Assembly (NCBI GenBank): GCA_032164295.1
Contig: JAJHTX010000003.1
Span: 992,001-1,056,000, forward strand
Reading direction: 5' to 3'
Source: Inonotus obliquus
Taxonomy: Eukaryota; Basidiomycota; Agaricomycetes; Hymenochaetales; Hymenochaetaceae
Length of the DNA stretch: 64,000 bases
Shown here: positions 39,266 to 61,361 of the stretch, piece after piece
Layout of the letters: each line of letters begins with the position of its first letter
How positions within the stretch are numbered: position 1 is the stretch's first letter
Position numbers and translations under genes: made by a program
The notes under the pieces: generated by a model
Databases searched by the model: none
What the model was told of the DNA's origin: nothing
What the model saw: the letters and a program-made list of their open reading frames with translations, nothing else

Positions 39266-39270
39266 GCGAT

Positions 39271-40989
39271 GAATGTGCGAGAACGCGGCCGGTATTAGAA
39301 ATACCGGATGAGGGGGGTACGATTTAGATGCGTTGGGAGGGCCGGTACGTGGCGGTACTAAGTCGTACAGTCACAGACAAGTCGTCAAGAGAGGATAGTA
39401 GGGCCTGGCTGGATTGATGAGTACAGGAGACTATAGGTGACCGCTCAAGAGGAGAGGTATCAGGAGACGATCAATACCGAGACGAATCCGTCGATACCGA
39501 GTCGTCTGGTGTCCGGTATTACGGTAGAGAGAACGAAGCAGTAGAGGAAGCGAGCTGAGGAGGTGTTTCTGATGGGACTGGTCGTGAGACGAGAGACGAG
39601 GGCGACGAAGACGAGAACGACGACTACCGGTATCGATACCGGTGACTACGAGACGAGACGAACGAACGGGGACTTGAACGGTATGAGCAAAACCCGGACC
39701 TTCACTCTGGAAGTTCCTCTCCGATTAGCTGCTTCGCTACAGTAGAACATGCAGGCTATAAATACCATAATACCGTAGCCATTCAAGATACCAAATGGGG
39801 GTTTTTACAAGTCAAATCGTACCGTAATCCGGTACAAGAAATGGAACATAAGGTCGAATTGAATGTAAAATTACAATCAGGGGAAACATAAGATGATGAA
39901 TGAATAAGAAGTTTTATCAGGGGGTAGCTAAGAATAGGGTGGGACGAGACAAGAACCCAATGAAAACTCACGACGAGTGATACCGAGGTAGGGCGGCGAT
40001 ACCGACGTCGACCAGCGCTAAATTAAGGACGTGTCTCAAGCTACCGCATGGGCGCTCCTGGCGATGTCCCTGTCGTAGGAGAAGCACGTCATCCTGATTT
40101 ACCTTTGTTCCGGTATCATGATCCGTGCGGCGTCAGTCTGGGCGTCTACCGATCGATCGGACGGCGTGCTCCGATGTTGACGTGTCGGTACAACCCAACC
40201 TTGGCAATGGGGTACTCTACCGTTCGGTACCAATCAGTACCCTGGGATCGTCCCTGAGCATCGCTCTAGCCCCTCGATATCGACCGGTACGCGTCGCCTG
40301 ACTCGACTGGGCATTGCTTGGCTTCCCCTCCGAGTCGGATCGATGGCCTCCTCCGAGATCGAAGCAGCGTACGGTGGACTTGATTCATTTCCCAACCTTC
40401 CTCTCGACGTAGATCTCCGATGGCGTGGTCTCGACCTAGCACACGTAACGAACTCCGGTACCGGAGCGGACCATCGGTATCAACACCGGTATCGTCGGTA
40501 TCGATGCATGGCGGTTCGGAAGGGCATACCGTCGGGCTTGGAACCTCGACCATGATCCAACTCTTCGCAGCAACGTATGGCAGACCGAGTGCAGCTTTGT
40601 GAGCCTTTTTCTATGGTATGGGCTGTCGAGGGCGTAGTATCGACTAGGTGTGGAGTATTAAGCGTCGGTATCAGGACGGGTGGACGGTACGGTATCGGTA
40701 TCATCGGTATCGAAGTCTGGTGGTTCGGTACTATGATGGAAGACGGGCGTAGGGATTGGTGATTCGGTATTGGCGCAGAAGTGGACCAGTTCTCAATCGT
40801 TCTTAGCCTTGTCGAATTGCAGAAGCCTCGTACTTTGTTGAAACCGCAGGCGTAGATAGGACGGCAGAAGTACCGTGGTCCGAAGAGAAGTAAGAAGCGG
40901 TAGAATCGCAGAAGTATTGTTAATTGGAAGAAGCGGTAGAATCGCAGAATTAAGCCCATATCGATCGTAGCCTCCGGTATTCCTCTTTA
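39271..40989 (+). mobile_element. Unclassified element B1 (1719 bp, non-coding)
   Basis: Flanked by GCGAT on both sides (39266-39270 and 40990-40994). Begins GAATGTGCGAG and ends CTCTTTA, similar to the ends of A1/A2. The interior is rich in CGGTATCG and GGTACC words and contains the 18-bp perfect palindrome ACCGGTATCGATACCGGT at 39626-39643. A CTATAAATACC box is near 39740. It is almost identical to B2 (53531-55235). The long frames in it lack protein character. Confidence 0.83.
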
Positions 40990-42657: not shown

Positions 42658-42950
42658 TGTTAATTCGGCGAGGTGCTGATCTGGTAGGATCGGCGTCTAG
42701 ATCTGGTTGTTACCTCGAAAGAGGGGTTAATCCAAATTCACTATGCTACTATAGCTGTGGAATCAATAGCTACCTTAGGGGATGTGTTAAGCTCCGTCTA
42801 AAACAACTATCAACCAACTTCTGTAGCCTGTGGTCTAATACTATTATCATAATGTTAGTTATACTGATAACTAAGTGATAACCTTAACTGTCTGAAAGGA
42901 TTGTGCTGAAATTTTGATTCGATTAGGAACGCCGATCGAAACTACCCCGG

Positions 42951-43727
42951 ATGGGACCGGTTAATTTCACTGGCCGGAGACGATCAGGATCGACAGCGAG
43001 AAGCGAAGAACACGCGAATCTAATACAATCCGAAGCCGACGATCAAGAAGCATCGGCTAGCAACGCTAATCCCGACGATCACACTAAACCTTCGCAAACG
43101 ATGCAACAAGTACAGCAACCTCCAACAGCTTGCTATAAATGCAGAAGAGTGCGACAGATCATCGAAGACCTACACAAGATAATACTACGGGAGGCAACGG
43201 GCATGTTGACATATCATGTGTCCAGCGAACGAGCAACAGCTTATTGAGAATACCACAATCCCCCGGAGGTCATTCGAAATCGCACGAGGTCAACAATAGC
43301 AATGGATACGGCAATAGGCATGCAACCAAAGACGCACTGGACAATAGTAGGAATCCACGACATATTAGCACTCGAGTGCCCAAGCACATTCGTGGAGATC
43401 AGTGCAGACTATGTTACGAACCGCCGATCACCGATAACAGCGGCATGGGTTGCAAACACACTCAGGGAACTATGGGCATACTGCAAAGCTATTCGACTAC
43501 AAGGAGACCTATACCTAGGCTGGAGAATACCTTCGAACGATACTCGACGAAGTGTACGGCTACTCATCGCCATAGGCACATACGTTAAACCACCTTGGTT
43601 TCCCCACGATGATATCCGATGTCGAATCACACTTGACGGCCCCGAACAAGAGTCCCGAGGCGACAAGCAAATCACAGCCTTCATAGCCCCAGATGCTATA
43701 CAACGGAACCCCGACGGAATTCCTTAA
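42951..43727 (+). pseudogene. U3-type ORF of unit K, one in-frame TGA
   Basis: ATG at 42951. The first 60 residues are polar and low complexity, then CYKC and a helical region (IIEDLHKIILREA). A TGA at 43245-43247 interrupts the frame, which then stays open to 43727 (AIGMQPKTHWTIVGIHDI, ITAAWVANTLRELWAYCKAI, YLGWRIPS, YVKPPWFPHDDIRCR). Position and length resemble the D1 and D2 ORFs, and a CxxC precedes the helical part in all three. Homology is tentative. No known family is recognised. Confidence 0.4.
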
Positions 43728-44057
43728 ATGCACGAGCAACTGCGGACGAGCGAACTTTAACTACGGCGCAGCCATGCAAAACCAATGGCATACGAACACG
43801 CATTCAATGACTCACTCACTGACTCACTCTATGCACAGGGCACAGCACAAGGCCGACCCCGAGCATAGGTTTCAATTCAGTTCAAGTCAAGATGAGTCAA
43901 CGCCGAGTCATCGCCTTGCACAGGGCGCAGTCGATGAGTCAATCCGCAGCAGAACAATAGGAATACCAGACGAGTTTGGAAGCTAGAATAACGAATCAGG
44001 TCGAGAGTAGGAACTACGGAGCGTAGGAAGTGGTCCGTCCACAACATGAGGAAAAGG

Positions 44058-44065
44058 TATAAATA
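44058..44065 (+). promoter_or_regulatory. TATA box of unit K
   Basis: TATAAATA, about 330 nt after the K ORF, followed by GTTGTAGAC and a CT-rich tract. Confidence 0.45.
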
Positions 44066-44771
44066 GTTGTAGACTTAGACCGTAGCTCCCCATCTTTCTT
44101 TCGATCGTCTTGTACATCGAGTCCTCTTAGGCATCTAGCTTCTAATCTGAAGACCACCTAATCTGCTTAACCTCTCTTACTCTACGGCGTGGAACGATTG
44201 ATTAGTCGCCCACCAACTAGAGAAGCTTGCGAACGGCAACCTACCGGAGTTTAGCTGGGTACTTGTCCTACTAGCCTGTCAACGAGGTTAAGGCCCGACT
44301 TGATCAGATAAACGAGAGCGTCTGAGGCAACACTTAGTATACTTGGGAATCTGCCCTGCTTGTGAAAACCGAGTAGGCTCCGGAAACTCTTAGAAAAGCA
44401 TCGCCGAACCCGTAACACTGCGGACCGTCCTACTGTGGTTACTGTATAGTCCCTTTAGGGCGAGCGTTTTCTAACACTGTCTGTACTAACACTTGTTGGA
44501 CACGATAAGAGAGGTATGAGAGATCAATGCTTACCACACTTTGATCAATTAGCACTCAGGCTGACGATAGGGAGAGACAGTCTAGCTGCTATCCGTATTT
44601 TACCTAAGCTTCAACTCACACTGTTGATTAGCGTAAGGAGTGTCGCTCTCAAGTACTTATTGGGTTCTTAGTGTGGAGGTTGTTTATCGATCAACTGGAG
44701 ACTTTCTGTGAGGTTTACTCTGAGTCTCTGGACTTGGATTAAACTGCTGGGTTGGCCCTACGATGGCCTCC

Positions 44772-44779
44772 TATTTATA
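44772..44779 (-). promoter_or_regulatory. TATA box of unit D1
   Basis: TATAAATA on the minus strand about 240 nt after the ORF stop. It is followed by GGAGGCC and GCAGTTTAATCCAAG, which are also found behind the D2 TATA box. Confidence 0.5.
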
Positions 44780-45018
44780 CTATTTTACATGCCTGTCTAG
44801 TATAGGAATTATCTACTGTTGGTCTGTTCGCTTCAATGTAACTACTTTCAGACCTAGTCATACTCGATGCTAGCTGCTGTGCATTGCCGTATGACTTGTT
44901 CATATCGGTTCCGGTCATACCTGTTCTCCTATGACTCTAAATACCTTATGTCATATTCCTATTACCTTTCAGTCCTCGTCTTAGTAATCTATCCCCATCC
45001 ACTTAGTCTGGTGCTGCC

Positions 45019-45798
45019 CTAGTGCATTACATGGTCGAGGTTCATAACGTGTGATCGGCTTCGAAGCCGTCGATCAAACTCTGCCATGCTTGGTAATGTT
45101 TGGGTCACGTGCCATACGGGTGTCTGGATCGGCTCTGTCTGTGTTCCTACACTTCGCCATCTTGGTAATGTTATTGCCCCAGGTGTGTCGATGTTATTAA
45201 TTACTTGCTGCACTCTAATGTATCCTGGTGCTACTGCTATGTCTGCTAGTGATCTGCCTCGGATTCCTTTGATCCTTATTATTCCTCCATATCGACCTTC
45301 CTTTACTTCTACAACTGTTCTTCCTCCTGTCAGTAATTGCTTAAGTCTTTGGACTAGATAGTCGGTCCACTTGTAAGCTGACTCTCTTGCGATATGTTCA
45401 GGTTCATTCCTGTATGGTATATCGATGTCTAGTACTGCTACATCGCATTGGTGATTATCTTGTTCTGAAGCCACGTTTCGTATTCCTATTGCCAATAGGA
45501 AGTAATGATTATCGTATGAGAGTAACCTAACTTCTCGTTCATAAGCCTTCCATACAGTTGTATTCGGTTTATAGTTCATTACAATGAATTGTCTCCTAAT
45601 CATAACGTCCGATTGTCCCTTGACGATTGCTGAGTATGTTATTTCCTTCAGTATCTCTCGAAGTAGCTTTTCTGCTATCTCATGTGCTGGTCTACATATG
45701 CTACAATACTGTAACACTCCTGGTCTTGGTGTTGCTGGTATTATTGGCTGTTGTAGTGCTCGTGTAACCGCATTCAACCTTTCCTGTATCCAATTCAT
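45019..45798 (-). CDS. Unknown LTR-borne protein, D1 copy (259 aa)
   Basis: Intact frame from ATG 45798 to TAG 45021-45019. I do not recognise the family. Visible features: amphipathic start MNWIQERLNAV; LQQPIIPATPR; a CSIC cysteine pair at residues 32-35; helix LLREILKEITY; KAYEREVRLLSYD; LLAIGIRNVA; CDVAVLDIDI; VVEVKEGRYGGIIRIKGI; PGYIRVQQVINN; and a basic C-terminus. No signal peptide or membrane helix. The D2 copy shares the order and many residues (WIQERL, QPI.P.TPR, C..CRPA, EITY, MIRR, KAYERE, IGIRNVA, YGGVIHLQGVQG), so protein coding has been kept since the copies diverged. It lies in the U3 position of a solo LTR-like unit. Confidence 0.65.
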   Translation of the reverse strand: MNWIQERLNAVTRALQQPIIPATPRPGVLQYCSICRPAHEIAEKLLREILKEITYSAIVKGQSDVMIRRQFIVMNYKPNTTVWKAYEREVRLLSYDNHYFLLAIGIRNVASEQDNHQCDVAVLDIDIPYRNEPEHIARESAYKWTDYLVQRLKQLLTGGRTVVEVKEGRYGGIIRIKGIRGRSLADIAVAPGYIRVQQVINNIDTPGAITLPRWRSVGTQTEPIQTPVWHVTQTLPSMAEFDRRLRSRSHVMNLDHVMH

Positions 45799-45860
45799 AT
45801 TGGAGTTACTTCGGTTATCAATCAGGCTTAGTAATAGTGAATTGTATTGCTTTTCTAACA

Positions 45861-53423: not shown

Positions 53424-55692
53424 TGTTAGGACGGATGAGGTGGCGGTGCACACTCGAGGCCTGTTCTCACGAAGGTCGTCTGGTGACAACCTCTACTGCG
53501 TCTTGGGGAGAGTACACAGTCGTCGGCGATGAATGTGCGAGAACGCGGCCGGTATCAGAAATACCAGACGAGGGGGGTACGATTTAGATGCGTTGGGAGG
53601 GCCGGTACATGGCGGTACTAAGTCGTACAGTCACAGACAAGTCGTCAAGAGAGAATAGTTGGGCCTGGCTGGATTGATGAGTACAGGAGACTATAGGTGA
53701 CCGCTCAAGAGGAGAGGTATCAGGAGACGATCAATACCGGGACAAATCCGTCGATACCGAGTCGTCTGGTGTCCGGTATTACGGTAGAGAGAACGAAGCA
53801 GTAGAGGAGGCGAGCTGAGGAAGTGTTTCTGATGGGACTGGTCGTGAGACGAGAGACGAGGGCGACGAAGACGAGAACGACGACTACCGGTATCGATACC
53901 GGTGACTACAAGACGAGACGAACGAACGGGGACTTGAACGAGATGAGCAAAACCCGGACCTTCACTCTGGAAGTTCCTCTCAGATTAGCTGGTTTGCTAC
54001 AGTAGAACATGCAGGCTATAAATACCATAATACCGTAGCCATTCAAGATACCAAATGGGGGGTTTTTACAAGTCAAATCGTACCGTAATCCGGTACAAGA
54101 AATGGAACATAAAGTCGAATTGAATGTAAAATTACAATCAGGGGAAACATAAGACGATGAATGAATAAGAAGTTTTATCAGGGGGTAGCTAAGAATAGGG
54201 TGGGATGAGACAAGAACCCAATGAAAACTCACAACGAGTGATACCGAGGTAGGGCGGCGATACCGACGTCGACCAGCGCTAAATTAAGGATGTGTCTCAA
54301 GCTACCGCATGGGCGCTCCTGGCGATGTCCCTGTCGTAGAAGAAGCACGTCATCCTGATTTACCTTTGTTCCGGTATCATGATCCGTGCGGCGTCAGTCT
54401 GGGCGTCTACCGGTCGATCGGACGGCGTGCTCCGATGTTGACGTGTCGGTACAACCCAACCTTGGCAATGGGGTACTCTACCGTTCGGTACCAATCAGTA
54501 CCCTGGGATCGTCCCTGAGCATCGCTCTAGCCCCTCGATATCGACCGGTACGCGTCGCCTGACTCGACTGGGCATTGCTTGGCTTCCCCTCCGAGTCGGA
54601 TCGATGGCCTCCTCCGAGATCGAAGCAGCGTACGGCGGACTTGATTCATTTCCCAACCTTCCTCTCGACGTAGATCTCCGATGGCGTGGTCTCGACCTAG
54701 CATACGTAACGAACTCCGGTACTGGAGCGGACCATCGGTATCAACACCGGTATCGTCGGTATCGATGCATGGCGGTTCGGAAGGGCATACTTCGACCATG
54801 ATCCAACTCTTCGCAGCAACGTATGGCAGACCGATTGCAGCTTTGTGAGCCTTTTCCTCTGGTATGGGCTGTCGAGGGCGTAGTATCGACTAGACGTGGA
54901 GTATTAAGCGTCGGTATCAGGATGGGTGGACGGTACGGTATCGGTATCATCGGTATCGAAGTCTGGTGGTTCGGTACTATGATGGAAGACGGGCGTAGGG
55001 ATTGGTGATTCGGTATTGGCGCAGAAGTGGACCAGTTCTCAATCGTTCTTAGCCTTGTTGAATCGCAGAAGCCTCGTACTTTGTTGGAACCGCAGGCGTA
55101 GATAGGACGGCAGAAGTACCGTGGTCCGAAGAGAAGTAAGAAGTGGTAGAATCGCAGAAGTATTGTTAATTGGAAGAAGCGGTAGAATCGCAGAATTAAG
55201 CCCATATCGATCGTAGCCTCCAGTATTACTCTTTAGCGACATACGTCCAAGGTGATGAGTCTTGAGTAATGCACACGTCTAGGAACAGTATATAACTAAG
55301 ATGTCGTGGTGGTAAGTAGATTGAATAAACTAAGTAAGTACAAGAGAGGAATACCTAAGACGTCGTGGTGGTAAGTAGAAGAGTCGAGTGGAGAAGACGA
55401 GATAAGATCTATCTACTTATATACACCTGGATTGTGGGAAGATATTACTCTAAGAAGGTGCTGTGCAGCAGCATAATAATATAACCAAACAATCAATGGG
55501 GCCCGACAAGTCAGCAAGAATGAGTAAGGGTGAGTAAGCGTCATCGGGGTTGGGGCGGAATTAGTAATGCGGTATTAGTAATGTATCGGGATGGGGCGGA
55601 GGGAGTCATAAGGTATTAGTAATGAAAGGAAATTAGTAATATAAGGGAATATGAAATAAGAAAAGACGAAAATAAGGAAAAGCATTTTTACA
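53424..55692 (-). mobile_element. LTR E2, probable 5' LTR of G3, split by B2
   Basis: On the minus strand it starts TGTAAAAATGCTTTTCC at 55692 and ends CGTCCTAACA at 53424. Without the inserted B2 it is about 559 bp, close to E1 (549 bp). It shares GTGTATATAAGTAGATAG and TCGGGCCCCATTG with E1 and E3. The G3 leader follows directly (CAGACCAGCAGTG). Confidence 0.7.
53531..55235 (+). mobile_element. Unclassified element B2 (1705 bp, non-coding)
   Basis: Almost identical to B1 (39271-40989), with the same ends and the same 18-bp palindrome (53886-53903). Flanks are GCGAT (53526-53530) and GCGAC (55236-55240), a 5-bp duplication with one changed base. A 15-bp stretch present in B1 near 40530 is missing here. 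Confidence 0.82.
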
Positions 55693-56302: not shown

Positions 56303-58280
56303 AGGTCATATTGTGACAGTAGTAAGTGCCATGCACTTTGTCATAGTGTGAGTCGGCGCGGTTCTCTGTAATATGTGAGGTTCTTGTGGTCACACCATAA
56401 AGTGACTGGGTGTGGTGATCCAAGTAGATAGTGTCACCATGTGTTAAGTGCCCATATAATTGCCAGAAGTTCCCTGTCATAAATCTGATAGCGCTGTTCG
56501 GTTGGTGAAAAGGTTTTTGAAATGAATCTGCAGGGTTTTAGGTCTTCATTTTTATCATATTGACGCAGTACTGCTCCAGATGCTACTTTCGATGTGTCTG
56601 TTTCCAGTATAAATGGTTTGGTCTTGTCTGGCATAAGCAGGATCGGTTCATGTAAAAATGCTTCCTTGAGTATTTTGAAAGCTTGATCGCATTCAGGTGT
56701 CCATTGCCAGGGTTTGGTAGATTGTTTGACTGCATCCAATGGTCGAGCAATGTCTGCATAGTGGTTGATGAATCATCGGTAGAAGTTGGCAAATCCTAGG
56801 AAACATTATACATCCTTGGCTTTTGTGGGAATGGGCCAGTCCCTAATTCCAGCCACTTTGGCAGGGTCCATCTGCATATGGTCGCTTGAAATGATGAGTC
56901 CAAGGTATTCGACTGTTCCTTGAGCAAATGTGCATTTCTCCGGTTTGAGGTAAAGATCATTATCCATCAGTTTCCGCAATATCCTTGTTGTTTTGTCTTG
57001 TAGTTCCTTCAGTGTTTCTGCATAAATCAGGATGTCGTCCATGTAGATAACAATTTTGTTCTTGTTTAATTCGTCCCTAAAGATTTCATCCATAAATGCC
57101 TGGAATGTTGCTGGAGAATTGCATAAGCCAAAGAACATGACTGTCAGTTCGAATAATCCCCTGTTTGTTTTGAATGCTGCTTTCCATTGGTCTCCATCCT
57201 TGATCCGTATGTTGTTATATCCCCATCGCACGTCCAGTTTGGTGAAGTATTTTGCCCCCTTCAATTTGTCCAGAAGGTCACTGATCAGTGGTAAGGGGTA
57301 TGCATTTTTTACCATTCCTTCATTTAACATGCGGTAGTCTTGGCATGGTCGCAGGGAGGAGTCCTTTTTTGCTACAAAGAAGAATGAGGATGCTTGGGGA
57401 GATTTTGATGGGCGTATATATCCTTTGCGGAGGTTTTCTTCAAGAAATTTATCGAGCGCCAATTGTTCCTTGGGTGCTAGTGGATAGACCTTGCAGTCTC
57501 GAGATATGAAGTCCTTCTTCAATTCAATTGCATGGTCGCATGCTCGGGATGGAGGGAACTGTTCAGAGGATTTCTTGTCAAATACCGTTAGAAATTGATA
57601 GTATTCATGTGGTATTATCTCCTCCAATGTCCTGTTTCTAGAGCCTTTTGGTGCCTGCTCTTGGGCCAACCTAGTTGCCACTGTGGTTCTGTTGAGGTGG
57701 CATTCGGGTTCTTCTTTGACATATGCTCGTAGAGTCCATGGTACGGTAACAGGAGAGTTGTCCAAGTCTACAATCTTTTCTTTGGTTGCTTGGTGAATAG
57801 TGAGTGTCTTGCTAGACCAATCAATCTGAGGGTTAATCTTCCTAAGCCAGGGTAGTCCCAGAATAACAGGGGTTTTCCCTATGTCTGCGATGAGAAGTTG
57901 TTCCATTCGAGTGTCTCCAATAACAATTCATTGTAATGCATATTTCGAGATAAGTCCAGATTTGTTTATAGTGTGATCTGCATTTCGAGCAGTGATCGGA
58001 TGTGCCAAAGGAAATTCTTTGAGTCCATGAAGAGTGGTTATGTTTTTGTTAAGAAATACCCCTTCTGCTCCTGAGTTTACGAGTGCTTTGGTTTCAACAG
58101 TTTTCCCTCCCCAGCAGAGCTTTATAGGAATGATGAACGACTCTGTATTCGGTTTAGATATTACAACTGGGAAGATTTATACTTTAGGCGGTGATAGCGT
58201 CGACCTATTCTGCCTGATTAAAAACCCTCATCTGCCAGGAAGTTGAAAACTGTGTCCCTTTCTTCAGATGTCATGGATTT
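56303..58280 (-). pseudogene. pol: G2 protease, reverse transcriptase and RNase H
   Basis: Protease region near 58080 reads ALVNSGAEG, where DSGA is expected, so the catalytic Asp is lost. [16 protein letters not shown] follows. [48 protein letters not shown] and an intact YMDD. RNase H: WQWTPECDQAFKILKEAF, FILETDTS and YDRELLAIIWALNTW. Stops include TGA near 57930, TAA near 56803 and TGA near 56776. The RNase H remnant reaches 56303 ([15 protein letters not shown] region in shifted frames) and is cut by LTR F. No integrase remains. Confidence 0.78.
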
Positions 58281-58775
58281 TGTTTTTCTCCGTGGAGGGT
58301 TCGTTGATCTTTGATCGACGGACCAATCTGGCTAATTCCTCGGGTTGAGGGGTTAATCCAAATTCTACAATACTGGTTATGGAATTGCTAATCACCTTAG
58401 TGGACTGTGTAGCTGATCCGATCTGAAACAACTAGCAACTAACTGATATTGCAGTTGAACCTGATATTATAATCGTACAGTATTAAGTCGGCGTGAAGAC
58501 GCGGTTGTTATACTGATTGTTATTCACGATAAGGGAATATCGGGAATCGCACTACGTTGGGAGTAGCTCGTACCGTGCAGACAATAGGGAGGACAATCTA
58601 GTTGCAATCCATATTTTAGCTTTACTTCGATTTCACACAATCGGTTCAGTTCAGCCGTGTCGCTACTAGTAATTTACTGGCTCGCAAGTAATTGATGTTA
58701 CGATTTAACTTAGGGACTTATGGTAGGGTCCCTTGACTTGGATTAAACTGCTAGGTCGGCTCTACCATGGCCTCC

Positions 58776-58782
58776 TTATATA
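58776..58782 (-). promoter_or_regulatory. TATA box of unit D2
   Basis: TATATAA on the minus strand, about 150 nt after the ORF stop, followed by GGAGGCC as in D1. Confidence 0.5.
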
Positions 58783-58931
58783 CTAATTTACATGTGTGAC
58801 ATTACTACCTTGTTACTTACTGTTTATAGTATTTATCTGTCTTTTCCTCCTATGATACCTGGTCCGTGCTTTCTCTTTCCTTTCTTCCTTATTCTACTAC
58901 CTCTGTGTTACTAGCCTTCTCTTCGTTTAGT

Positions 58932-59717
58932 TTAGTGTAGTGGGCGGTACCATCTTGTAGACAGGTTCGATTCCTGTGTCGGTAACGGCACTTGATCCAA
59001 TTCAGCTATTCTAGGTAATTGCTGAGTCAGCTGTTCTTGTCTCTCTCTTGTTTGTATTTCGGTTCTTGATTGCATTGGTAGGATCGGTCGTGGTATAGTT
59101 AACCAATTTCGAATTGTTTGTATTCGTGTATATCCTGACGTTGTCCTTGCGCATTGTAGGGTCATCCCTTGTACTCCTTGCAGGTGTATTACTCCGCCGT
59201 ACTGTTCCACCTTTACTTTCATTATGGTATACCCGTATGGTAATCCTCGGCTTATATAATTCATTATCCAATGCCCCCAAGCATATGCAGTTCTCTCGTT
59301 CGTTCCGGTTTGGTCTCGCTTGTAGGCAATGTCGACATCTACTATAGCTGTGTCGCATCGTTCGTGTCTTCCTTCTTGTGCTACGTTTCGTATTCCGATC
59401 ATCATTACAAAGTATCCGGCATCGTAGGATAATACTCGTATTTCCCTTTCATAAGCTTTTGTATTTGTTTGGTTAGGGTCGTAGGTTAGTTCTACAAATC
59501 AACGTCGTATCATTATGTCGGCTTGTCTGTTCATTATATCCCCGTACGTGATCTCTCTGATTAATTCTCGCATTAGTCCTCCGGCTAGTTCTTTAGCTGG
59601 GCGGCACGTGTTGCAACATCGTAATATATTGCTTCGCGGTGTCGGGGGAACAATGGGCTGTTCTAGTACTTGTATTACTGCCGCTAATCGCTCTTGTATC
59701 CAACGTAGGATGCTCAT
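58932..59717 (-). pseudogene. Unknown LTR-borne protein, D2 copy, one in-frame TGA
   Basis: Homologue of the D1 protein with the same length (about 261 codons). ATG at 59717 (MSILRWIQERLAAV), CNTC cysteine pair at residues 35-38, LMRELIREITY, then a TGA at 59501-59499 where D1 has Gln. The frame continues FVELTYDPN, KAYEREIRVLSYD, MMIGIRNVA, CDTAIVDVDIAY, VEQYGGVIHLQGVQG and ends at 58932. No frameshift separates the copies despite strong nucleotide divergence. Confidence 0.6.
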
Positions 59718-59765
59718 AGTTATTGGCTTATTAATGATGGATAACACTATCTTTCTAACAGATTT

Positions 59766-61361
59766 CACGATAGCCCTTATAGACGCTGCCTTGTCTCTGG
59801 GTGCCTCTTCTTTGGTTTCTTCCTCAGTTATAAATAGTTTAGGGTTCTCCTTTTCCTGAGTTCCCTCCTCATAGTATCCAGTTTCCGCATGACAAATGTT
59901 CTTATTGAATCTGGTGTCTTTGTTGAAGTTAGACCGTCCTTTCCATTATGTGCGATCGTTGAGTTGCTTGTTCCAGGGTTGAGGTTGGTTGTCGCTTCGA
60001 TTATTCTTGGGGCATTTATGTGATATGTGCCCAGTCTGTCCACATCCAAAGCATCTTCCTTCCCTGAAGTATTGTCCCCTTTCTTGTGTAGAAAGTCTTC
60101 TAATTCCAATCTGATCTACATCCATTGCATCAAGGTCTTTAGGTGGATTGGAAGAGTTGCCTCCAGTCGGGTTAAAGTATGCTGCTTGTGCATTATGAAG
60201 GCATTCAAATCCTGCATCGATTTGTCTAGCTGCTTTATACCATCCACTCATATCAGTTGGAAGATTCTCCCTGGTATATATCGCTTTGAGTATTTCTGGC
60301 TTGAGCCCATTTTGGAATTGTTGTACCAGAGCTTCATAGTCGTTGATGTTGGCTCTATGGGCCAGTACTTGGAACTGGGCAATGTATTCATCAACACGCT
60401 TCTTCTGTTTGAGGCGGTCAAGAAGGAATTTTGCTTCTCCTTTGACGTCCAAGTGAATGAACTGAGGATTAAATCTCTGATCTATGAAATCATTGTATGT
60501 CCATTGACCGAGGTTAGGACCTTCTTGTTCAAGGAATAGGCTTGCAAATGCTGCAGCTGTATCTTTGGTGCAGTATGATAGGACAAATAGAATTTTCTTC
60601 ATATCCATGTCATAGACGTGTGAGTTGATCATCAGATAAACCTCGCATGCCAGTTTAATTTCTCTTGCATGCCTTGCTGAGCTGTCAAAAGATGATAGGC
60701 GGTTGAGTCCAATCTCTGAAGGCCTTCCTTGAGGAGGTATATTCCCTTGAGGTATTCCTCCAGGTGCTCCTCCTGGTGGTCCTCCTCCTCCGCCTCCTCC
60801 TGGGCCTCCTTCTCCTTCTAGTCCTACTCCTCCTCCTCCTCCTCCTCCTCCTTCTAGGTTAACAGGAGGGTTAGGAACAATAAGTGTTTGTGCTTGTATA
60901 GTGGCAGATTTCATGGTCACGTTCAAGGTTGGGGTTTGGCTTGGTTCAGTCTTCTGTATTGATATCTTAGTAGGTTTATTCTGAGTGTCTTCTGGGGTTT
61001 CTTTCTGTTCTTCAGATGATTCCGCTTTGTCGCTTGATTCTTTGTTCGAGTCTTTATTGGCTGCAGAGAATCGTCCAGTACTCGAGGATGCAGCTATCTG
61101 TTTTGGTGGTTCAGGTATCGACTTCTCTGGTTTTAGTCGCGGGTCGTATACTTTCCACCTTCCTTCTTGTTCATTGTAGAACAGTTGATATTTCTTTCCT
61201 TCGTAGGCCAAGTAATAGGTCTTCCTTTCTTTGTCCCACTCAGCCCCTCTGGGGAGCTTTCGCTGCTGTTCATCGCCTCGATCAATAGTGGGCCTAAACA
61301 CAGCAGTGTTGGCAGTTTGGAGAGCTTGACCTAATGTTAAGGCAACACAGGTCTTACCCAA
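59766..61361 (-). pseudogene. gag: G2 gag with poly-Gly tract and zinc knuckle
   Basis: A long frame (471 codons from 61361 to 59946). WDKERKTYYLAYEGKKYQLF near the start, an acidic/Ser-rich region, a Gly-rich tract encoded at about 60740-60850, capsid EIKLACEVYLMIN, WTYNDFIDQRF and NLPTDMSGWYKAARQI, and one CCHC knuckle CFGCGQTGHISHKC. It ends at 59946. A second short frame (to 59828) and then TEEETKEEAPRDKAASIRAIVKS lead to the D2 insertion. No ATG precedes the first conserved residues; the frame is open from the LTR boundary, so the start is unresolved. Confidence 0.75.

Follow-up and report, generated by a model that had tools for sequence, protein, structure and literature searches.

Genes encoded in the U3 region of long terminal repeats (LTRs) are, to our knowledge, known only from few vertebrate retroviruses; examples are the sag gene of mouse mammary tumour virus (MMTV) and the 3' end of lentiviral nef, both of which are reached via spliced or subgenomic RNA. 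A literature phrase search on U3 genes returned MMTV as the sole known case. Among retrotransposons, Tf1 uses the first 11 nt of its RNA as primer and has a single gag-pol frame without accessory genes. Here we describe D2, a unit in a stretch of 64,000 nucleotides from the basidiomycete Inonotus obliquus (GenBank assembly GCA_032164295.1, contig JAJHTX010000003.1, positions 992,001 to 1,056,000; hereafter the window), which we regard, as a whole explanation that is probable, as the solo LTR of a recently active Ty3/gypsy chromovirus that carries a complete accessory gene in U3.

Two other systems are relevant to the layout of the parent element. In rice tungro bacilliform virus (RTBV), according to the available part of PMC5902531, upstream frames of about 900 nt are cleared of AUG so that ribosomes get to the main frame, and a distal accessory gene is accessed through splicing. 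The sORF2 elements of Drosophila (MDG1 group) are Ty3/gypsy elements with a short transmembrane protein, which lies downstream of pol in some Lepidoptera (PMC11952523, available part).

The D2 unit and its parent element

The initial annotation had described an LTR-like unit with an exact 5-bp duplication, an open reading frame (ORF) of about 260 codons in the position of U3, a TATA box behind this ORF, and a conserved R/U5-like part. The ends, the duplication and the TATA box were found as described (Table 1; TGTT at the start and AACA at the end on the plus strand), and the conserved part was recovered as a block at the U3/R border common to D2 and a second solo LTR of the window, D1. D2 is nested within another Ty3/gypsy element, for which a gag frame (59946-61361) and a reverse transcriptase frame (56806-57906) are located on the minus strand.

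Table 1. Features of the D2 and D1 LTRs in the window, and predicted features of the full-length elements L031 (D2-type) and L043 (family A)
Feature	Position	Strand	Remarks
D2 solo LTR, 1480 bp	58281..59760	-	TGTTAG...AAACA on sense (minus) strand
Target-site duplication GATTT, one side	58276..58280	.
Target-site duplication GATTT, other side	59761..59765	.
D2 U3 ORF, first piece	59502..59717	-	ATG at 59717; 72 codons
In-frame TGA breaking the D2 U3 ORF	59499-59501	-	after 72 codons
D2 U3 ORF, second piece	58932..59498	-	188 codons + stop (58932-58934)
TATA box TATATAA, LTR promoter of D2	58776..58782	-	33 nt upstream of predicted R start
Block conserved between D1 and D2 LTR families, TATA box into R	58728..58794	-	87% over 68 nt; repeat family D13
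Predicted 5' end of R, AGTTTAATCCA	58739..58749	-	self-primer for the primer-binding site of full-length copies
D1 U3 ORF, homologous, open	45022..45798	-	259 codons; ATG 45796-45798
D1 solo LTR (family A), first part	44476..45860	-	98% to LTR of full-length L043
D1 solo LTR, rest of R/U5	42658..42894	-	behind insert 42895-44475
Internal TATA box and predicted spliced membrane-acidic gene	L031 1619-2341	-
	L043 9512-9951
Predicted intron before ORF1	L031 9357-9410	-
	L043 2243-2290

A search of the genome (36 Mb, 30 contigs) gave at least 41 matches to D2, with 40 of 114 candidates scored, and the best 30 of the 41 matches, the window copy included, were used as the sample for all D2-type LTR counts below. 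Pfam matches in this genome, 37 to Fungal_trans (PF04082) and two to HET (PF06985), agree with its fungal origin. Of the 30 sampled LTRs, 12 are solo with 5-bp flanks that are identical, 10 are 5' LTRs with a primer-binding site (PBS; TCTGGATTAAACTCCC) behind them, and eight are 3' LTRs with a polypurine tract (PPT; GAAGGGGGAG) in front. Seven 5'/3' LTR pairs differ by 3, 0, 4, 1, 1, 0 and 0 bases over 1454-1479 positions; transposition was therefore recent.

The parent element is about 11.3 kb long with LTRs of about 1.46 kb. In the copy L031 on contig C1, whose LTR is 92% identical to D2, a gag gene (Pfam Ty3_capsid and zf-CCHC) is followed by a pol gene of 1521 codons with the Pfam domains for protease, reverse transcriptase (RVT_1), RNase H, integrase and Chromo in that order; gag or pol frames are broken in several other full-length copies. 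The TG...CA ends, 5-bp duplication, paired LTRs, PBS, PPT, order of the pol domains and chromodomain are those of Ty3/gypsy chromoviruses, and D2 is almost certainly the solo LTR of a recently active member of this group. The active parent element that had been surmised elsewhere in the genome was thus located, as full-length Ty3/gypsy copies with both LTRs matching D2, and the gag/pol domains and LTR arrangement of these copies rule out a DNA transposon, an alternative named in the initial annotation. A viral_contigs scan gave no match (near records of this genome may be left out there).

A conserved gene in U3

In D2-type LTRs the U3 ORF starts with an ATG 44 nt into the LTR, comprises about 253-261 codons, and stops before the TATA box. 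Its start is the first ATG of the LTR in all 30 sampled LTRs, and the frame is open (253-261 codons) in 23 of these, including nine of the 12 solo LTRs. The U3 ORF proposed for D2 is a real gene in the family, and it is the window copy itself that is broken, by an in-frame TGA.

Counting only columns in which two or more copies had the same variant, we found 17, 10 and 51 variable columns, each of 253, at the first, second and third codon positions of the 30 LTRs, compared with 39 of 649 columns behind the frame and two of 46 before it. Indels inside the frame are 9 and 15 nt long, those outside 1-2 nt. Among nine D2-type copies picked from the open ones, the ratio of nonsynonymous to synonymous substitution rates (dN/dS; Nei-Gojobori) was 0.09-0.30 in 35 of 36 pairs, the remaining pair (1.52) having one synonymous change; the broken window copy compared with three others gave 0.26-0.29. 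The U3 frame is, judging from these substitution patterns, very probably a protein gene under purifying selection.

A tblastn search with P0001, a homologue from outside this genome (see below), gave 123 genome matches, in part fragmentary, with identities that cluster mainly around 57% and 42%. The U3 ORF of D1 is one of these matches. Two relatives of the U3 ORF, L047 (C6:2914900-2915800) and L048 (C5:1214300-1215100), contain many stops and have GC contents of 0.36 and 0.30, respectively; for these two, simple dinucleotide indices did not clearly point to repeat-induced mutation.

A second LTR family with the same gene

D1 belongs to a second LTR family (family A), has its own target-site duplication (ATCTG), and encodes a U3 protein 43% identical to that of the D2 family. 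At the DNA level, blastn (E <= 1e-5) aligned the D1 and D2 LTRs in three short blocks, of which the strongest begins at the TATA box and reaches into R and the others lie in R/U5; the U3 coding part was not aligned because it is too diverged. Other proteins of family A and D2-type elements are 53% (gag), 72% (pol), 34% (ORF1) and 31% (ORF0) identical, the latter two being the leader frames described below. Because inter-family synonymous divergence is saturated, selection is demonstrated within each family and by protein alignment and not by inter-family dN/dS.

The family A set comprised 17 sequences (14 fetched copies, the window copy, and both LTRs of one element), with 26, 16 and 51 variable columns of 259 at codon positions 1, 2 and 3, and U3 indels of 3, 6 and 21 nt. 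The start ATG is present in 15 of the 17 and there is no stop within the first 250 codons in 14, a fraction that is no fair sample because the fetched copies were mostly chosen among those listed as open.

An insert of 1.58 kb (42895-44475) lies in R/U5 of the D1 LTR, with 8 nt of LTR sequence repeated on its two sides, and fragments of this insert border two D2-type solo LTRs (L006 and L008) as read by eye.

Predicted transcription start and self-priming

The PBS TGGATTAAACT and the LTR sequence AGTTTAATCCA are exactly complementary (11-bp duplex), and in both families the latter follows the TATA box at a distance of 33-34 nt. Because of this complementarity, as in Tf1, the U3/R border of D2 is placed at 58750/58749. 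The R motif AGTTTAATCC is present in all 30 sampled LTRs and TATATAA in 27, the other three having TATATCA (two) or another sequence (one). Upstream of the predicted start, the first ATG is met after 44-45 nt in the LTRs inspected (nine 5' LTRs of D2 type and one LTR of family A), a distance that fits this start site. The whole U3 ORF lies upstream of this site, and therefore only its 3' LTR copy would be in the RNA.

The AUG-poor leader and ORF1

From the predicted start to the gag AUG, the leader of six D2-type copies is 2545-2550 nt long and contains 0, 1, 1, 0, 1 and 0 ATGs (C1, C2, C8, C3a, C9 and C3b, respectively), the single ATGs being at differing places (610, 723, 2311), where the dinucleotide composition leads one to expect 23-25; the family A leader has two in 2597 nt, with 24 expected. 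Among the 64 trinucleotides, ATG shows the strongest depletion in the four leaders compared (that of family A and the three of D2 type that lack it); in gag-pol of the same four copies it is slightly above expectation. The reverse complement, CAT, occurs 30 times in the C1 leader.

Two frames in the leader are conserved between the families, i.e. ORF0 (129/140 codons) and ORF1 (514-537 codons). Between them an intron of 48-54 nt is predicted (GTAAAG or GTAAGG ... TAG), the length of which varies without regard to multiples of three; its removal joins A/TGGCTTAC to create an ATG in the ORF1 frame in all six D2-type copies and the family A copy. The sites were found by eye in one copy per family and then checked in the remaining copies; because the six D2-type copies are closely related, the independent support amounts to the two families. 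The spliced ORF1 protein would start with MAY (A/TG GCT TAC) and has a hydrophobic stretch near the N terminus. For ORF0, no splice-assembled AUG was found at one homologous place in both families, and a Pfam scan of the extra frames, beyond gag and pol, gave no match. The element appears to conceal these extra genes from ribosomes through start-codon avoidance.

Predicted gene between pol and the 3' LTR and proposed expression of the U3 gene

At the end of pol, both families have an internal TATATAA(A/G)G motif (five of six D2-type copies, C3a not matching, and family A), followed 81-101 nt later by the ATG of a predicted small membrane protein. Its first exon is 105 nt long in all six copies with the motif, and the predicted introns, chosen as giving the longest frame, are 49 nt (D2-type) and 47 nt (family A) long. 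Together with an acidic second exon, the gene has 100 codons in C2, 101 in family A and 190-206 in the other four D2-type copies with the motif; the PPT and then the U3 gene follow. Read by hand, exon 1 of the membrane gene and the U3 frame do not fit in phase, and a fusion of the two was therefore discarded. A start of the U3 ORF upstream of the LTR, by read-through of the PPT, is possible in the 3' copy of L031 (frame open, two ATGs) and does not hold throughout: the corresponding frame of the family A 3' copy lacks an ATG, and L059 (family A) has a 1-nt deletion before the U3 ATG.

For the expression of these genes we propose that the nearly AUG-free leader of about 2.5 kb would serve as common 5' exon of the element's RNAs. 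Unspliced RNA would be scanned through the leader to gag, and RNA spliced to remove the intron of 48-54 nt would gain the ORF1 AUG. The 5' LTR copy of the U3 gene would be silent, since transcription should begin at R downstream of the gene, and the protein would come from the copy in the 3' LTR, which lies at the 3' end of the element's RNA. Splicing to an acceptor beside the PPT (CAGATGCATTCYTAG, identical in the one copy per family compared by eye) would put the U3 AUG first; alternatively, a transcript starting from the internal TATA box could give access to it. From this arrangement, it is fairly likely that a spliced or subgenomic RNA is the source of the U3 protein, with the 3' LTR supplying the coding sequence.

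The competing route, which we consider rather unlikely, would have no separate spliced RNA for the U3 protein: the ORF would be translated as a distal cistron on the mRNA from the internal promoter, or via host read-through. It would agree with the order of internal TATA motif, predicted membrane-acidic gene and U3 ORF in both families; against this, several AUGs and a complete gene precede the U3 ORF on such an RNA.

The U3 protein

Three successive searches of 5.8 billion proteins gave one, six and seven matches, i.e. seven homologues from outside this genome (P0001-P0007; best E 8e-111; 41-85% identity), all of them without a name and on contigs listed as at most 1887 bases long. Those in which the N-terminal part is present (P0001, P0003, P0004 and P0007) start within six residues of the same W. 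Kept in the protein are CxxC, RRxF, YERExRxLS, DIDIxY or DVDIxY, (D/E)xK and GYxR, and the isoelectric point of four members is 9.25-9.56.

Several observations weigh against the explanation of D2 as a whole. In the full-length family A element (L043/L044), the start ATG of the U3 ORF is replaced by ATA in both LTRs. The U3 protein has no match at E <= 0.001 in Pfam, PHROG, NCBIfam or PDB, the best weak value (0.019, one member) being to a PHROG without known function. AlphaFold2 models of two different members have the same main order of helices and strands with low confidence (mean predicted local distance difference test scores, pLDDT, of 60 and 57), and a library structure search with both gave no convincing match. 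All steps of the expression model, the splice acceptor and the internal promoter among them, are predictions from sequence, and on an RNA from the internal TATA box the first AUG would be that of the membrane gene, not of the U3 gene.

Because of the lack of sequence relatives and the low confidence of the models, the function of the U3 protein is a guess. Tentatively, it may be a basic, CxxC-bearing, mixed alpha/beta nucleic-acid-binding regulator of the element's own RNA or promoter; this guess draws solely on charge, the CxxC pair and gene position, and is the weakest step of the explanation.

The main rival, in our view unlikely, is an enzyme (a metal-dependent nuclease or nucleotidyl transferase) that acts in replication or against host defence. 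DxD and (D/E)xK patterns are found at the active sites of such enzymes, and D124-x-D126 together with (D/E)164-x-K166 are kept in D1, the D2-family members L031 and L003, P0001, P0002, P0003, P0005 and P0006 (P0004 ends after the first acidic pair and P0007 before it). In a comparison with PD-(D/E)xK nucleases, the acidic residues and the lysine are conserved, with models of low confidence and no fold match.

Less probable still, and quite doubtful, is a protein that restrains its own element (copy-number control), the LTR location retaining the gene after formation of a solo LTR. The open frames in nine of 12 solo LTRs would agree with this; however, young solo LTRs would be open anyway, and with only 43-62 nt of LTR ahead of the ATG, no promoter for the gene is apparent in a solo LTR. 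Finally, a captured host gene present only here, the other alternative named in the initial annotation, or a chance open frame is hardly credible in view of the 123 genome matches, the two LTR families, the seven outside homologues and the codon-level selection, and nothing was found in its favour.

Other features of the window

Direct repeats at 39266-40842 and 53526-55088 are 97-98% identical and about 14.25 kb apart. No match was obtained in an Rfam scan of the window, or in Pfam or PDB for two long window ORFs.

Comparison with known systems and significance

The position of the gene, in U3 ahead of the promoter and usable only from the 3' LTR, is that of MMTV sag and lentiviral nef, and the route predicted for its expression is similar; different are the fungal host and the entire frame from the ATG within the LTR. 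The likeness to vertebrate U3 accessory ORFs that had been suggested holds for position and does not extend to kinship as far as searched, with nothing in Pfam-A or PDB matching the sequence at E <= 0.001, known U3 protein families included, and no fold relationship found, which leaves room for remote kinship.

With self-primed elements such as Tf1 the element shares an 11-nt PBS that perfectly complements the bases with which the transcript is predicted to begin; it differs in its extra genes, compared with the one gag-pol frame of Tf1. With other fungal Ty3/gypsy chromoviruses (Metaviridae) it shares the gag capsid and CCHC knuckle, the pol domains with chromodomain, and the 5-bp duplication, and it differs by the U3 gene, the two AUG-less frames before gag, the internal TATA box, and the predicted spliced membrane-acidic gene after pol.

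As in RTBV and badnaviruses (leaky scanning), long frames without AUG precede the main frame, in this case over about 2,550 nt and not about 900 nt (PMC5902531, available part), and a predicted intron would assemble the ORF1 AUG, as an alternative to near-cognate initiation of the RTBV type. The membrane-acidic gene recalls the sORF2 elements with their short transmembrane protein in layout alone, as far as these are described in the available part of PMC11952523; the predicted protein has 101-206 amino acids and an acidic tail, and its gene would be split by an intron. The literature covered, open-licence papers including the available part of PMC3248453, gave no example of an ORF in a fungal LTR, an AUG-free leader or a start codon created by splicing that resembles those described here; this is a weak negative.

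We give about even chances to the broader view that the gene layout of complex retroviruses was reached independently in a fungal Ty3/gypsy lineage. This layout would comprise an AUG-poor common exon, Gag-Pol by long scanning, a splice-assembled ORF1 AUG, an internal promoter for another membrane protein with a spliced mRNA, and a novel family of U3 proteins made only from the 3' LTR.

A U3 gene kept under selection occurs in LTR retrotransposons of a fungus; the other examples known to us are in a few vertebrate retroviruses. If the AUG-free leader and the splice-assembled start are true, splicing alone would divide one RNA between Gag-Pol and a membrane protein. The two predicted membrane proteins, with no recognised envelope, bear on whether such elements pass between cells.
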